Below are positions 41,412-64,000 of a stretch of DNA of 64,000 nt, piece by piece (position 1 is the first letter of the stretch; the number at the start of each line of letters is the position of its first letter). The position numbers and the translations under genes were made by a program. The notes beneath the pieces are model-generated. The model made no database searches. It saw nothing but the letters and a program-made list of their open reading frames with translations, and was not told where the DNA came from. Origin of the DNA: Polyangium mundeleinium (lineage in GTDB: Bacteria > Myxococcota_A > Polyangia > Polyangiales > Polyangiaceae); NCBI RefSeq assembly GCF_028369105.1, contig NZ_JAQNDO010000001.1:11688501-11752500 (forward strand), read 5' to 3'.

Positions 41412-42779
41412 TCACGGTTCGTCCAGAAGCACGACGACTTTCGTCGTCCTGTCGGCGTTGGGCGGCGGTGCGTCGAGGGTCGGGTTGAGCGGCATATTCA
41501 GTCCAATACAAAGTGCAGTCCTCTTGATGTCGTCGTGTGCGACGACCCCCGTTGCCCACGTTGTCTGCCCGACCAATACCTCGACATGGAGACCTTTGCC
41601 CGCGAGCATGTCTCCGATGGTCACCGGAACCCGCCGTGGAGAGCGCACATTTCCTTTCGTATGGGCATCCGAGATCGGGATGCAGCCAATCCATTCGCGT
41701 GCGTCGACGCGCCGAAAACATACCTGGCCGTCGTCGGGGACATCGTTGCCGTTCACGCGGACACTGTACAGCCGGATCAATTCATCCTGCTTCGGCGGAA
41801 GAGCGTCGGCGCAAGCGCCTGGGACAGATGCACGATCCGAGGCACACTTACCGCAGTACTGGGCGGATTCCTTGCAAACCTGTTTCAGCCTGCTCGTATT
41901 GGACGGGTCCGTTCGGCACTCGATACCCCCGCAGCAAGAGGAACCACTTGGCGTCTGTGCAACCGGAACCGTCGTTTTGACAGAGGACTCATAGCCCTGC
42001 TCGTTGACGGACGGAGGCGAAACGCCCTGGTTCGGAGAGGCGCTCCCGTAAATACCCTTGAAAATACCCACACAGAACAGGACGACAAAGACACCCGCGA
42101 GCATCATCCATGACGTGCGAGACCACGAACGAGCTTCCGGAGTTCGAGAAAGCGGCCCGGTGCCGGCTCCAGGAGACGGCAGACTCAAATGAGGCTGGCT
42201 CCAACGAAGGTCCGGCGAAGATGGATGCGCCCCCCCGAAATCCGGGGAGGACGCGTGCATCGGTCTCGGATCGGACGGAAAGGAGGGTGCGCTCGACCTG
42301 TACGACGGAATTGAGCCTTGGTTCTGCGCCTCGATCGTCTTCACGATAGAGCGGATCGACTCCGCGACCAGGCTCCAAGCGTCATCCGGCTGTGGCCACC
42401 TCTCCACGGGCACGAGATTGGAGGGGAGCACGTGGAGCCCGGCTGGCCTCACGCCCGTGGCTTTTATATCGAGCGACCTCACCAGAACGGGCACGACCCA
42501 CGCCGTACGCTCCTCATGCCGCGCATAAGCCCGGTGTTCCTCGGCGTTGCACTCGCGGGACGCAGCGTAATCCGAGGTGAGCAAACATAAAATGATCTGT
42601 GCACGTTCGAGATCGGGATGGACATCAAGCCGTGTCTTGCCAGCCAAGACATTGTCGGTGTGGGAAATTCGTATCCGTCCGCGGGTGAGGAGCCCGGCGA
42701 GATGCTTCTCGAGCGCTCGGTAGGCTTCGACATCCTTGGGTGCCTTCGCGGCGAAGGAGATGAAGACGTCAACAGGCAT
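41412..42779 (-). CDS. membrane-anchored TIR-domain protein with Cys-rich C-terminal domain
   Basis: 455 residues from the ATG at 42779; the frame upstream runs through repeat DNA and is ignored. Residues 1-150 are a TIR domain (VDVFISFAAKAPKDVEAYRA, IILCLLTSDYAASRECNAEE with Glu80/81 at the NADase position). The BB-loop reads SHTDNVLAG and lacks the Trp of its neighbour. A Ser/Pro-rich linker (152-222) leads to one membrane helix (224-245, WMMLAGVFVVLFCVGIF). Residues 250-455 hold seven Cys within 45 residues and a beta-rich end. The TIR should be cytosolic and the Cys-rich part outside. Confidence 0.8.
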   Translation of the reverse strand: MPVDVFISFAAKAPKDVEAYRALEKHLAGLLTRGRIRISHTDNVLAGKTRLDVHPDLERAQIILCLLTSDYAASRECNAEEHRAYARHEERTAWVVPVLVRSLDIKATGVRPAGLHVLPSNLVPVERWPQPDDAWSLVAESIRSIVKTIEAQNQGSIPSYRSSAPSFPSDPRPMHASSPDFGGAHPSSPDLRWSQPHLSLPSPGAGTGPLSRTPEARSWSRTSWMMLAGVFVVLFCVGIFKGIYGSASPNQGVSPPSVNEQGYESSVKTTVPVAQTPSGSSCCGGIECRTDPSNTSRLKQVCKESAQYCGKCASDRASVPGACADALPPKQDELIRLYSVRVNGNDVPDDGQVCFRRVDAREWIGCIPISDAHTKGNVRSPRRVPVTIGDMLAGKGLHVEVLVGQTTWATGVVAHDDIKRTALCIGLNMPLNPTLDAPPPNADRTTKVVVLLDEP

Positions 42780-43005
42780 CCGCGACTCTCCGATGGCCCA
42801 GCGGGTGATCCGTGCTCCGTCTCCGGAAGCCGGAAGAGTGTGCGACGCTACCGCAGTTTGTCGGCCGCTGGCAAGTGCCGAGCAGATCCTGACCTGGGCC
42901 GCCCCCTGCGACAGGTTGCACGCGTCAAACCACCACCTCCTGCCTCCTTCCCTTATCCCCTGCCCCACCCACTCCGGACGCTCCGCTCTCCGCCTCGCAC
43001 CATGG

Positions 43006-55708: not shown

Positions 55709-57628
55709 GTGAAGCAAGCGCAGTTCCTGAACGTCGTGGACCGGGACGAGGCCGAGCGGCGCTTCCGCGCAGCGATCGGCGAGCTCGGCGCGATCGGCGT
55801 CGAGATCGTCCCGCTCGACGCGGCGCTCGGTCGCTTGCTCGCCGAGGACGTCGCGAGCCCCGTCGACGTGCCCGGCTTCGATCGTTCGAACGTCGATGGC
55901 TACGCCGTGCGCGCGTCCGACACGTTCGGCGCCACCGAGGCCGAGCCGCAGCGGCTCCGGCGCTTGCCGGGCAGCGTCGCGATGGGCCGCCTCCCCGACG
56001 TCACCGTCGAGCCGGGCACGGCCCTCGCGATCCCCACGGGCGGCGCCGTGCCGCGCGGCGCCGACGCGATCGTCATGGTCGAGCACACGCTCCTCGACGG
56101 CGACGACGTGCAGATCACGAAGGCCTCGATCCCCGGCCGATGGATCACCTACGCGGGCACCGACGTCGCGCAGGGTGAGGTCGTGCTCCGCGCGAAGGAG
56201 CGCCTCACCTCGCGGGAAACGGGCGTCCTCGCGGCGATCGGCCTCGATCGTGTCGCCGTGCTCGCGCGTCCGCGTGTGGCGATCCTCTCGACGGGCGACG
56301 AGATCGTCCCGCCTGGTCAGCCGCTCCTGCCGGGCGCGGTCTACGATTCGAACGCGCGCATCCTGTCCGACGCCGTCCGCGAGGCCGGCGGCGAGCCGTT
56401 CCTCGCCGGCATCGTGCCCGACGACGAGACCTCCGTCCGCGACGCGCTCCGCCGCTGCCTCGCCGACGCGCACGTCGTGCTCCTCTCGGGCGGCACCTCG
56501 AAGGGCCCCGGCGACCTCAACGCGCGTGTCCTCGCCGAGGCCCTCGATCCGCCCGGCATCGTCGTGCACGGCGTCGCGCTCAAGCCGGGCAAGCCCCTCT
56601 GCCTCGCGGTCTCCCGCGGCAAGCCCGTCGTCGTCCTGCCGGGCTTTCCGACCTCGGCGATCTTCACGTTCCACGAGTTCGTCGCGCCCGTCATCCGCGC
56701 GCTCGCGGGCCTCTCCGAGCGCGCGGACGACACGGTCACGGCGCGCCTTCCGTTCCGCGTCACGAGCGAGCACGGCCGCACGGAGTACGTGCTCGTGCGC
56801 CTCGTCGACGACGAACACGGCGCGCGCGTCGCGTACCCGATCGGCAAGGGCTCGGGCTCCGTCACCACCTTCTCGCAGGCCGACGGCTTTTTCATCGTCG
56901 ACGAGCGTGTCGAGATGCTCGACGCCGGCGACACCGTCGTGATCCACCCCGTCGCCGGATCCCGCCCACGGCAGGTCGATCTCGTCGTCATCGGCAGCCA
57001 TTGCGTCGGCCTCGACGTCCTGCTCGGCCGCCTCGCCGCGCGTGGCACCACGAGCAAGCTCATCGCCGTCGGCAGCGAGGCCGGCCTCGCCGCCGTCCGC
57101 CGCGGCGAATGCGACGTCGCCGGCGTCCACCTCTACGACCCGAACACCGGCACCTACAACGAGCCTTTCCTCGACCCTGGGCTCGAGCTCGCCCGCGGCT
57201 ACGGCCGCATGCAAGGCGTGGTCTTCCGCCCCGGCGATCCGCGCTTCGAGGGCAAGCGCGCCGAGGACGCCGTCCGCGAGGCCGCCCGCACCGAGGGCAT
57301 CGTGATGATCAACCGCAACCGCGGCAGCGGCACCCGCGCGCTCTACGATCGCCTCCTCGGCGACGCGCGCCCCGCCGGCCACTCCGTCGAGGCCTCCTCC
57401 CACCGCGCCGTCGCCGCCGCCGTCGCACAAGGCCGCGCCGATTTCGGCATCGCGATCGACATCGTCGCGCGCGATCGGCGCCTCGGCTTCCTCCCGCTCG
57501 GCGAGGAGCGCTTCGACTTCGTCGTCCCCTCGAACCGCCTCGGCCGGCCCGCCGTGCGCACCTTCCTCGCCGAGCTCGCGTCCGCACCGACACGCGCGGC
57601 CCTGCGCGACCGAGGGCTCCTCGCGTGA
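55709..57628 (+). CDS. MoeA fused to a periplasmic-binding-like (molybdate-type) domain, copy 2
   Basis: 639 residues from a GTG. Residues 1-405 are MoeA-like (FDRSNVDGYAVRASD, ILSTGDEIVPPGQP, LSGGTSKGPGDLN, VVLPGFPTSAIF). Residues about 410-639 are a type-2 binding-protein-like domain without signal peptide (VDLVVIGSHCVGLDVLLGRL, CDVAGVHLYDPNTG, MINRNRGSGTRALYDRLLG, VAQGRADFGIAIDIVA), like that of molybdate-sensing regulators. The fusion is known from other bacteria and archaea and probably couples ligand sensing to Mo insertion. Its stop overlaps the GTG of mobA. Confidence 0.9.
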   Translation: MKQAQFLNVVDRDEAERRFRAAIGELGAIGVEIVPLDAALGRLLAEDVASPVDVPGFDRSNVDGYAVRASDTFGATEAEPQRLRRLPGSVAMGRLPDVTVEPGTALAIPTGGAVPRGADAIVMVEHTLLDGDDVQITKASIPGRWITYAGTDVAQGEVVLRAKERLTSRETGVLAAIGLDRVAVLARPRVAILSTGDEIVPPGQPLLPGAVYDSNARILSDAVREAGGEPFLAGIVPDDETSVRDALRRCLADAHVVLLSGGTSKGPGDLNARVLAEALDPPGIVVHGVALKPGKPLCLAVSRGKPVVVLPGFPTSAIFTFHEFVAPVIRALAGLSERADDTVTARLPFRVTSEHGRTEYVLVRLVDDEHGARVAYPIGKGSGSVTTFSQADGFFIVDERVEMLDAGDTVVIHPVAGSRPRQVDLVVIGSHCVGLDVLLGRLAARGTTSKLIAVGSEAGLAAVRRGECDVAGVHLYDPNTGTYNEPFLDPGLELARGYGRMQGVVFRPGDPRFEGKRAEDAVREAARTEGIVMINRNRGSGTRALYDRLLGDARPAGHSVEASSHRAVAAAVAQGRADFGIAIDIVARDRRLGFLPLGEERFDFVVPSNRLGRPAVRTFLAELASAPTRAALRDRGLLA

Positions 57629-58284
57629 GCGCCGGCCTCGTCCCCGGCCTCGGCGCCGTCGTCCTCGCGGGCGGCCGCAGCAGCCGCATGGGCCGCCCCA
57701 AGGCCTGGCTCCCCTTCGGCGACGAGGTCCTCCTCCAGCGCGTCGTACGTCGCCTCGCCACGGTCGCCGCGCCCCTCGTCGTCGTCCGCGCCCCCGGGCA
57801 AGCGCTCCCGCCGCTCCCGGCCGACGTCGCCCTCGCCGACGACCCCGTCGAAGGCCGCGGGCCTCTCCAGGGCATCGCGGTGGGCCTCGCGGCGCTCGCT
57901 GGCAAGGCCGAAGCCGCGTTCGTCTCCTCCACCGACGCGCCTTTCGTGGATCCCGCGCTCGTGCGTTTTCTCGCGGATCTCCGCGGCTCCACGCACGACG
58001 TCGTCGTCCCTCGCGCTGGCGGGCATTACCACCCGCTCGCGGCGGTGTACGGCGTCTCGGTCGTGTCCGAGATCAACGCCCTCCTCGCCGAGGACCGCCT
58101 CCGCCCGTTTTTCCTGTTCGAGCGCGTCCGCACCCTCGTCGTCCCCGAAGATCGGCTCCGCGAGGCGCCCGGCGTTTCCCTCTCCGGCGACGAGATCCTC
58201 GCCTTGCGAAACCTCAACACGCCCGAGGACTGGCGCGCGGCGCTCGACGTCGCGGGCCTGCCGATGCCGCGCGATCCGGCTTGA
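57625..58284 (+). CDS. mobA: molybdenum cofactor guanylyltransferase (MobA)
   Basis: 219 residues from a GTG overlapping the preceding stop (GTGA). LAGGRSSRMGRPKAWLPFGD is the nucleotide-binding loop, followed by SSTDAPFVDPALV, where the Asp binds the metal. GHYHPLAAVYG and LRPFFLFERVRTLVV complete the fold. The enzyme attaches GMP to Moco to give the guanine dinucleotide form used by formate dehydrogenases and related enzymes. This matches the NuoE-NuoF gene at the head of the operon. Confidence 0.93.
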   Translation: MSAGLVPGLGAVVLAGGRSSRMGRPKAWLPFGDEVLLQRVVRRLATVAAPLVVVRAPGQALPPLPADVALADDPVEGRGPLQGIAVGLAALAGKAEAAFVSSTDAPFVDPALVRFLADLRGSTHDVVVPRAGGHYHPLAAVYGVSVVSEINALLAEDRLRPFFLFERVRTLVVPEDRLREAPGVSLSGDEILALRNLNTPEDWRAALDVAGLPMPRDPA

Positions 58285-62385: not shown

Positions 62386-62420
62386 GGGAGCCCTTGTATC
62401 ACGAGCGCGCCCCGAAAAAG

Positions 62421-62456
62421 AAAACCCCCAGCAGGCCGAAGCATGCTGGGGGTTTT
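62421..62456 (-). terminator. intrinsic terminator of the ATPase-SLOG gene
   Basis: AAAACCCCCAGCA (62421-62433) pairs with TGCTGGGGGTTTT (62444-62456) across a 10-base loop. On the minus strand the stem is followed by TTTTCTTTTT. It lies 20 bases after the ATPase stop and ends the fusA-containing transcript. Confidence 0.9.
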
Positions 62457-62475
62457 GCTTACCGCGAACCTTCGA

Positions 62476-63792
62476 TCAGGAAGGATCGCCGAACGACCGC
62501 TGGAAGAGCTCCTCGATCGCCTGCTTTCCGTCCTCGGTCAGGTTCTGCGTGCCGATGCCGGCGAAGGCCTCGCTCTTGATCATCGGCAGGGTCGCCATCT
62601 CCCACGCCGTCCCGCTCCAGCGGAACCAGGTCCGCTTCTGCTGGTCGAAGACGTAGAGCGGCTTCTTCCAGAGCCGCGCGAGCTCCGCGCCCCAGCCCGT
62701 GCCGCCGCGGACCGTGCCGTCGTCCTGGATCTGGCCGACGACGAAGACCTCGCGCGCCGCGTTGATCTGGTACCAGATCGTCTGCAGCACGTTGCGCACC
62801 AGCGGGATCTCGCTGAGCACGCGGCCGAGGCGCTTCGACACGTAGACCAGGCTGAAGTCGCCGCGGCGCAGGTCCGCCTCGCTCAGCACCTGCACCCCGC
62901 GCGTACGCTCGCGCAGCGTGTGGCCCTCGAAGCTGAAGTTCGTCTCCGTCAGGCCCCAGCGCTCCGCACACGCGCCGAACGCCGCCTCCGCGCCCTTCGC
63001 GCCGCCCGAGTAGAGGCGGTAGCGCTTGGCATCGCGCGGACGCTCGGAGGCCGGCGGGATGTCCGCGTCGATAATCCGCATCGTGTGCGGCTCGAGGCGA
63101 AGCGAGAGATCGGCGATCTCCTTGCTGTCGTGATCCTTGAGCAGGCGCAGGCGCACGACGTCCTTCTCGGGGTCGAGGAAGACCACGACGCCGAGTTTGT
63201 CGAAGAACCGATCGACCGGCGCGGGCGCCGAGCCCGGCTTCGCCTCGCTGGCCTTCGTCGTCGTCGAGAGCCAGAGCTCGGCCGAGTGATCCCGCGCGAG
63301 CGTGATCAGCGTGTCGATCATGGCCTCGGTCGCGTGCGCGCAATCGAAGCCGTCGATGATGATCACGTCCGGCGAGAAGTGCGCGATCTCGCGGGCGAAC
63401 GCCACGGTCTCGACGAGCTTCTTCATCGACGACGACGCGCCCTCGGTCGTGTTCCCGTGACCGAGGAGCGAGAAGATCAGCCGGTGACGCTCCAGGTCCA
63501 GGCGCACGGACTCGGGCTCGGCGAGCTTCGTGTACGTCGCGATGTCGTGGAAGAGCTCGTCGTAGTAAGCGCGCACGTGATCGACGGCGTGCTCCGTCGA
63601 GATGTGCAGCACGCGCCGATCACGCAGCAGATCGTCCAGCGCGATCTGCACGAGGAGCGCCGTCTTGCCGACGCCCGCGCGCGAGAGAACGACGCCCACG
63701 TTGCCGCGGCCCAGGCCGCCGTGCATCGACTTCTCGAAGACCCGCATGGGGCTCCGCTCGTTGACCTCTTTGCGGTACATCGGTGCCCTCAC
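62476..63792 (-). CDS. RecA/KaiC-like ATPase fused to a SLOG-like nucleotide-binding domain
   Basis: 438 residues from a GTG overlapping the fusA stop (GTGA); an ATG at 63780 is an alternative start. Residues about 25-245 are a RecA/Rad55-type ATPase with Walker A SRAGVGKT and Walker [13 protein letters not shown]. Residues about 262-415 have [33 protein letters not shown] and [20 protein letters not shown], the pattern of SLOG/YAcAr-type nucleotide-binding domains. A short tail follows ([12 protein letters not shown]-like region). The pair suggests ATP-dependent sensing of a nucleotide signal, co-expressed with EF-G. Confidence 0.75.
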
Positions 63793-64000
63793 TTCCCCTT
63801 CTTCGCCAGCTCTTCTTTGTGCTTCTTGATGAGCTCCTCGGAGATCGCTCCGGGGACCGGGGCGTACCGGGAGAACTCCATGGTAAACTCAGCTTTGCCC
63901 TGCGTCGCGGAGCGAAGAACGGTCGAGAACCCGAACATCTCGGCGAGGGGGACCTCTGCCTCGACGCGGCAGAACCCTTCGGACTCCGTCGTGCCGATGA
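63789..64000 (-). CDS. fusA: elongation factor G, C-terminal part (5' beyond the window)
   Basis: The last 70 codons of an [23 protein letters not shown] then [20 protein letters not shown] are the conserved domain V of EF-G, ending in a Lys/Glu tail ([17 protein letters not shown]). It drives ribosome translocation with GTP. No start codon for it lies in this window. Its stop overlaps the GTG of the ATPase-SLOG gene, so the two are translationally coupled. EF-G2-type paralogues are possible; the first domains would decide. Confidence 0.9.

Follow-up and report, generated by a model that had tools for sequence, protein, structure and literature searches.

The end of the window (the whole stretch of 64,000 nucleotides of Polyangium mundeleinium DNA that was analysed) raises the question of what a gene for a two-domain ATPase is doing directly behind a gene for elongation factor G (EF-G), and whether the two proteins work together. 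The ORF list of the window has a single reading frame here (62476-63792, minus strand; 438 aa counted from a GTG), which encodes an ATPase fused to a SLOG-type domain. It is a single-copy gene in a genome of 13.25 Mb, and its nearest named relatives are from Polyangium. The first-pass annotation, made from the letters of the DNA, had described a Walker A/B ATPase and a GGTGWG...PLYVF domain within one protein, and we find both motifs and both folds; the AlphaFold model of the whole protein, built from 46 sequences, has two domains and a pLDDT of 86.4.

The same annotation had proposed a GTGA overlap between the two genes. The stop codon TGA of the EF-G gene (63789-63791) does overlap the GTG of the reading frame, but as a start codon this GTG does not hold up: an ATG at 63780, 8 nt past the EF-G stop, opens a sequence, MYRKEVNE, that is common to the orthologues, and four out of five Sorangium orthologues (L021-L024) have no in-frame start codon where the GTG would lie (L025 does have one). 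The GTG is therefore probably not the real start, and we place the gene at 62476-63780 (minus strand), still in close spacing to EF-G. The terminator that had also been proposed is borne out by a hairpin with a U-rich tail, of the intrinsic-terminator type, 3' of the ATPase gene (62415-62456, minus strand; 13-bp outer stem). The RNA of 62405-62480 (76 nt) folds with -34.8 kcal/mol (z -2.7), which 4 of 200 shuffled sequences equalled. An automatic terminator scan, with its loop limit of 8 nt, picked up the hairpin only in a shortened form, and its 3 matches against 1.8 expected are not above chance.

The window ends inside the EF-G gene (3' end at 63789-64000, minus strand), which continues upstream within flanking DNA (L064:3790-5919), and the evidence on this EF-G is drawn from there. 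The genome has three EF-G genes. The one linked to the ATPase has human mitochondrial EF-G1 (6ydp) as its nearest solved structure, with 775 bits against 637 for the EF-G of T. thermophilus, and it carries a KDG insertion in switch I (HDVKGKDGVGAKMD), an insertion described as specific to spdEFG1 in the available text of Margus et al. (PMC3150367). With both of these features, we assign it to the spdEFG1 type, in likeness to spdEFG1 and to mitochondrial EF-G1. The other two EF-Gs of the genome score higher to bacterial EF-G than to mitochondrial EF-G1. One of them lies between rpsG and tuf (L145; G000:C1, at ~3.46 Mb, genes read by eye), is nearest to E. coli EF-G (936 bits) and lacks KDG; the third is diverged, gave no switch-I match and would by likeness be an EFG II. 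The adjacency to an EF-G that had been noted thus stands, while the identification of this EF-G as the canonical fusA is rejected, because the rpsL-rpsG-fusA-tuf context belongs to the other gene and the linked EF-G has KDG and the likeness to mitochondrial EF-G1.

What differs from spdEFG1 as described is that the same genome here also encodes an EFG I and a third EF-G; a look-up for spdEFG2 in this genome returned one EF-G in an EFG I context and one diverged EF-G. Candidates for spdEFG2 were found elsewhere (L257-L261), one of which (L258) scores 789 to bacterial EF-G and 498 to mitochondrial EF-G2. In four draft genomes (G072, G183, G138 and G259; loci L236, L241, L242, L244, L248, L249, L251 and L252) we found just two EF-Gs, one of the spdEFG1 type and one resembling EFG II by small score margins, and neither an EFG I nor a clear spdEFG2, with the proviso that drafts can miss genes. 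If the drafts are complete in this respect, these four genomes would run against the reported pairing of spdEFG1 with spdEFG2, and spdEFG1 may be the main translocase in them. The two accounts of spdEFG (PMC3150367, PMC4342817), in the portions available, make no mention of an ATPase partner.

Is the position behind EF-G peculiar to this strain? An EF-G gene lies directly upstream of the ATPase gene, and in the same orientation, in 105 of the 108 genome handles, which come from three phylum groups (48 + 15 + 31 + 7 + 7 after removing repeats, with duplicate loci left out), so that the linkage is conserved, as had been suggested for checking, and is not unique to one strain. Set by set, the linked loci number 16/16, 45/48, 10/10, 29/29, 1/1 (L195) and 5/5. 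Among close relatives, the protein occurs in 16 of 59 genomes searched, each time with EF-G directly upstream. A profile search (E 1e-15) of a Myxococcota sample found the ATPase domain (N-domain) in 48 of 140 genomes, linked in 45, and of 17 further genomes reached via other loci 10 have it, all adjoining EF-G. Outside the Myxococcota, the phylum of G190 (a record titled Deltaproteobacteria bacterium) has the N-domain in 31 of 118 genomes, with 29/29 returned loci linked; the ATPase is EF-G-linked in G190 itself (L137) and in G306 (L195), and in the phylum of G199 (a record titled Candidatus Eisenbacteria) it occurs in 7 of 7 genomes searched and is linked in every one. The KDG insertion is present in 53/53 linked EF-Gs whose switch I could be read; two further linked EF-Gs have KDG and KEG, respectively.

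The three unlinked cases in the Myxococcota sample belong to one genus and have their EF-G on another contig. These genomes (G177, G134 and G143; L103, L106, L109, L233 and L234) keep both the fused ATPase-SLOG protein and the EF-G, unlinked. In one linked locus (L069 on G165:C36, probably the same contig as L028, JAPYTK010000036.1) the EF-G is split by an apparent frameshift near residue ~520, which may be an assembly error.

The presence of the ATPase also depends on the type of EF-G. In the Myxococcota sample 85 genomes have an EF-G with 60% or more identity to that of the window; the ATPase was found in 48 of these, and in none of the 55 others (Fisher p 2.6e-14, a value that ignores shared ancestry; up to 19 candidates per genome were scored for N, 24 for the C-terminal domain and 8 for EF-G, and single misses are possible). 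In the remaining 37 of the 85 genomes the ATPase is missing, and a broader profile run on the fetched flanks of their EF-Gs found no N-domain at E 1, although in six of them (L197, L198, L203, L216, L219 and L227) less than 600 nt lie downstream, so that absence next to EF-G is unproven there. Many of these 37 EF-Gs lack KDG, so that the set defined by 60% identity extends beyond spdEFG1 proper. Such an EF-G can evidently function without the ATPase, since 37 of the 85 genomes lack it.

In a tree of 92 EF-Gs made by a quick method, all 52 linked ones fall inside one branch of 68 rows (SH-aLRT 99), and the linked state changes 6 times, compared with a mean of 30.2 after shuffling. Two loci from the G190 phylum (L186 and L187), which have the fused form, group with the Myxococcota loci L030 and L031 in both the EF-G tree and the N-domain tree, which points to some transfers; taken together, the trees are compatible with a pairing that is old and has since been lost in places and at times transferred. 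Four EF-G columns differ between linked and unlinked proteins, a comparison that is confounded by ancestry. Two of these are positions 218 and 224 (L064 numbering), which by their place fall in the G' region; linked EF-Gs have D218 (0.98) and S224 (0.92) there, and E and D predominate in the 36 unlinked ones. They could possibly mark a contact surface, or ancestry.

With near-constant linkage, a presence limited (in the Myxococcota sample) to genomes with such an EF-G, and an intact Walker A motif, we consider it very probable that the ATPase and spdEFG1 are functional partners, and the position of the ATPase beside EF-G in such distant groups hints at an as yet undescribed factor that helps or controls protein synthesis. 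Co-expression alone could account for the conserved adjacency, and an operon position that is kept without any functional tie to EF-G is compatible with the sequence data taken by themselves. We nevertheless regard such a bystander role as quite unlikely, given that the ATPase is found in none of the 55 genomes without this type of EF-G and that the co-occurrence holds in the three unlinked genomes too. In addition, the linkage is kept while the N-domain diverges more than the EF-G does (at L030, 43% identity for N against 70% for EF-G).

A partnership can also be one of assistance rather than control: the ATPase might fold, assemble or repair spdEFG1, or release it (from stalled ribosomes, say), and the SLOG domain would be an enzyme that acts on a nucleotide which is damaged or modified. 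The same linkage and dependence data speak for such a helper, the spacing of 8 nt suits delivery of a subunit, and N occurs without the C-terminal domain at 21 of 48 loci, so that no sensor would be needed. The 37 of 85 genomes in which an EF-G of this type does without N argue against an obligatory chaperone, however, and RecA-fold ATPases are, to our knowledge, not usual chaperones. We consider a helper of this kind improbable on balance, if worth keeping in mind.

How the ATPase might act depends on its fold. The N-domain (residues 5-245; 63058-63780, minus strand) is a P-loop ATPase of the RecA/KaiC/DnaB fold, as judged by the AlphaFold model and by fold matches: residues 11-246 align to domains of T7 gp4, DnaB, Rad51-type proteins and KaiC with VIA-align Z of 19.0-20.5 among the matches listed, and KaiC ranks first in a Foldseek search with the whole protein. 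By sequence, its closest ATPases are DnaB and RadA. The Walker A motif (SRAGVGKT, residues 37-44; 63661-63684, minus strand) and the Walker B motif (residues 142-150; 63343-63369, minus strand) are conserved in the family: across 111 distinct N sequences G40, G42, K43, H63, Y77 and W174 are invariant, T/S44 is found in 107, R104 in 109, and position 147 of Walker B is D in 97 and E in 13. A lysine that we equate with K224 of KaiC is kept in 81 of the 111 sequences and replaced by R in 11. The positions that we take to correspond to the catalytic glutamates of KaiC and RadA after strand 2 are variable, with E67 in 27/111 and D or E at position 68 in 49/111. With Walker A intact and the catalytic glutamate sites variable, ATP binding by the N-domain is likely, while its turnover is uncertain and may be slow or absent.

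The description of this domain as a KaiC-like ATPase thus holds for the RecA/KaiC fold and for Walker A/B, and fails for the conservation of KaiC-type catalytic glutamates. Two tandem domains of the KaiC type can be ruled out, as the model has one RecA-fold domain and the N-only proteins are ~230 aa long. The fold, Walker A and the putative K224 equivalent are shared with KaiC, DnaB and RadA; the window ATPase differs from them in having a single ATPase domain, in its EF-G linkage, in its variable catalytic glutamates and in the invariant H63, Y77 and W174. It also stays below family cut-offs. The Pfam matches to KaiC and AAA_25 are sub-threshold for the window protein (20.6 of the 26.6 bits needed for PF06745), TIGR03881 gives 26.4 of 247.8 bits, and the protein as a whole reaches no Pfam or NCBIfam cut-off; one N-only relative does reach the cut-off of DnaB_C (28.1 vs 27 bits).

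As the whole-protein fold search was filled by the ATPase domain, the C-terminal domain (C-domain; residues 256-438; 62479-63027, minus strand) was folded and searched alone. Its model (23 sequences) has a pLDDT of 93.2, and its best match in the PDB is 3imk, annotated as a 'putative molybdenum carrier' (Z 14.2, 140 aligned residues, 2.9 A); in Foldseek 3imk, at E 9.1e-4, is the sole PDB row below 0.001. Among the matches listed, DprA of H. pylori follows at Z 6.4-6.5 and the remaining rows lie at or below 5.7, a listing in which the absence of other SLOG entries is no evidence against them. The structure 3imk belongs, we presume, to the circularly permuted YpsA family (cpYpsA, PF12694). The domain has the Rossmannoid fold of the SLOG superfamily, and also its GxD/E signature, GAE at residues 267-269, within the glycine-rich loop SGGAKGAE (residues 262-269; 62986-63009, minus strand); in the alignment of 44 C-domain sequences (A1, with two N-only tails set aside) G267 and E269 are present in 44/44. 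A second glycine-rich loop, GGTGWGAE (residues 363-370; 62683-62706, minus strand), is near invariant in the same alignment (G363, G364, T365, G366 and W367 44/44, G368 42/44, E370 43/44) and in our assumption resembles the LOG motif GGxGTxxE. The GxD/E signature was defined for the YpsA clade of SLOG proteins, as far as the text of PMC6459960 is available. A profile search with the C-terminal part, the check that had been proposed for it, gave phrog_768 (DprA-like) at E 4.2e-7, and together with the match to 3imk this confirms the SLOG-like domain that had been read from the sequence.

In fold and GxE motif the C-domain thus resembles the YpsA-clade and cpYpsA proteins; unlike them it stays below the curated cut-offs and is fused to an ATPase in one branch. 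For the window C-domain no curated Pfam or NCBIfam cut-off was reached, and PF12694 and PF10686 are not among its matches, while across the family members cpYpsA (PF12694) is matched in 2/46 (best E 0.016) and YAcAr (PF10686) in 7/46 (best E 0.018). MoeA-like and MobA-like genes (names read from the sequence) lie 4-7 kb away, at 55709-58284 of the window; their vicinity to a domain resembling a 'putative molybdenum carrier' is probably a coincidence.

The likeness to DprA brings up a role on DNA, in which the RecA-like ATPase would serve recombination together with a DprA-like partner and lie beside EF-G by chance. DprA is a SLOG protein that conveys single-stranded DNA to RecA (in the available text of PMC7824862), phrog_768 is named DprA-like, and DnaB and RadA are, as mentioned, the ATPases closest in sequence. 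We hold this to be very improbable, as the ATPase gene comes directly after EF-G in all but three of the 108 genome handles, DprA lies far below 3imk in the structural comparison, and no neighbour recurs in more than 4 of 24 standalone C loci.

Those standalone loci are part of a wider pattern, in which it is the ATPase that remains with EF-G, and the SLOG domain is, as judged from the genomes searched, absent or unlinked in many of them. Among the 140 Myxococcota genomes N and C are fused in one ORF in 27 and encoded apart in 12, so that 39 have both; 9 have N only, 4 have C only and 88 have neither. The association of N with C remains when the fused cases are left out (Fisher p 7.6e-8, uncorrected for ancestry). 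Standalone C genes of ~183 aa, about 47-57% identical to the window C-domain (L032, L033 and L035-L062), are present in several phyla; the titles of their records name Deltaproteobacteria, Ignavibacteria, Bacteroidota and a Clostridiales MAG. Of 15 genomes with a standalone C outside the Myxococcota sample, 8 have an EF-G-linked N and 7 have no N at E 1e-10; since C is found without N in these 7, it has some role of its own. By these counts C is tied to N, yet not bound to it. The standalone C genes matched no curated family in those tested, and a conserved neighbourhood was rejected for them on the limit of 4 given above, which comes from 24 of the 30 C-only loci.

Relatives of the C-domain also occur in phages. 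The phage SLOGs of phrog_768, from crAss-like and jumbo phages, are homologues of the C-domain with 24-33% identity in 20 records, and a protein of Agrobacterium phage Atu_ph07 matches its fold in BFVD (E 3.4e-14, TM 0.85). Some of these phage SLOGs, in contrast to the window C-domain, lie within very large proteins (targets of 1021-1451 aa). In Klebsiella phage Pylas a relative of the C-domain (42425-42832) lies beneath a gene annotated as RNA polymerase / virion RNA polymerase. Viral SLOGs belong mainly to the YpsA-like clade, which is tied to NAD and ADP-ribose signals (PMC9503650, as far as available).

This raises the question whether the pair is a shut-off for defence or stress, in which an NAD-derived signal, made upon phage infection or starvation, is sensed by the SLOG domain and translation is halted at spdEFG1 through the ATPase. 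The phage relatives of the C-domain fit this, as does the place of YpsA-clade SLOGs in conflict systems that use NAD/ADP-ribose signals (the available parts of PMC9503650 and PMC6459960). The searches turned out otherwise: PADLOC gave no strong match, the best being mad8 at E 1.1e-4, found in 15 of 46 members, and in the window protein the mad8 match (E 0.019) covers the P-loop; nothing matched in 72,556 plasmid records; and the SLOG domain was not found in 9 of the 48 N-bearing genomes. On the PADLOC and plasmid results we rejected a defence system as first choice, and think it unlikely.

A last alternative is that spdEFG1 and the ATPase form a resistance unit which, much as FusB does, confers protection from inhibitors of EF-G. 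Myxobacteria make argyrins, which target EF-G, but argyrin B also inhibits mitochondrial EF-G1, which is the type closest to the linked EF-G (PMC3438169, available text). Moreover, the pair is widespread in two other phylum groups. We know of no argyrin producer in these groups, and a resistance unit seems to us highly improbable.

We thus favour, at about even odds (roughly 0.5), the view that spdEFG1 has in the ATPase an ATP-binding partner of its own, to which the SLOG domain adds, where present, an input that responds to nucleotides. Taken on its own, an input role for the SLOG domain appears somewhat more probable than the contrary, and a role in regulating translation, as opposed to assembly or repair, we rate slightly below an even chance. 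The ATPase would bind ATP, probably in an oligomeric state as is found among its relatives of the RecA/KaiC/DnaB fold, and act on spdEFG1 or on the spdEFG1-bound ribosome, whereby translocation would come to depend on energy state or stress. In the fused forms the SLOG pocket would bind or cleave an adenine-nucleotide or NAD-type ligand and pass its state on to the ATPase. In its most specific form, which we put forward tentatively, this would be a module for translation control in which the ATPase throttles or licenses translocation by spdEFG1 and the SLOG domain ties it to an NAD or adenine-nucleotide signal; the gating, the ligand and the direction of the effect are what we infer.

Two known systems might work alike. 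FusB is an EF-G-binding partner (PMC3352095), and in Bacteroides a second EF-G, EF-G2, is induced under carbon limitation (PMC6989115), so that EF-G paralogues can be condition-specific; in neither case does the available text involve a RecA-fold ATPase or a SLOG domain. For EF-G in combination with KaiC, a RecA-like ATPase, SLOG or spdEFG, we found no account of the pair in the openly licensed literature, as far as its text was available. Both folds and the EF-G subfamily are known, and their combination appears to be the new part, which we have not seen described.

Few translation factors have been studied as much as EF-G, and still a gene that trails a mitochondrial-type EF-G across three phylum groups stays, in the window species, below every curated family cut-off. 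If the ATPase does regulate spdEFG1, the pair would provide a direct route from nucleotide state to translocation. Since spdEFG1 looks like the main elongation factor in the four drafts, such control would then bear on core translation, not on an accessory function. It would also help to explain why a second or split EF-G has been retained in bacteria.
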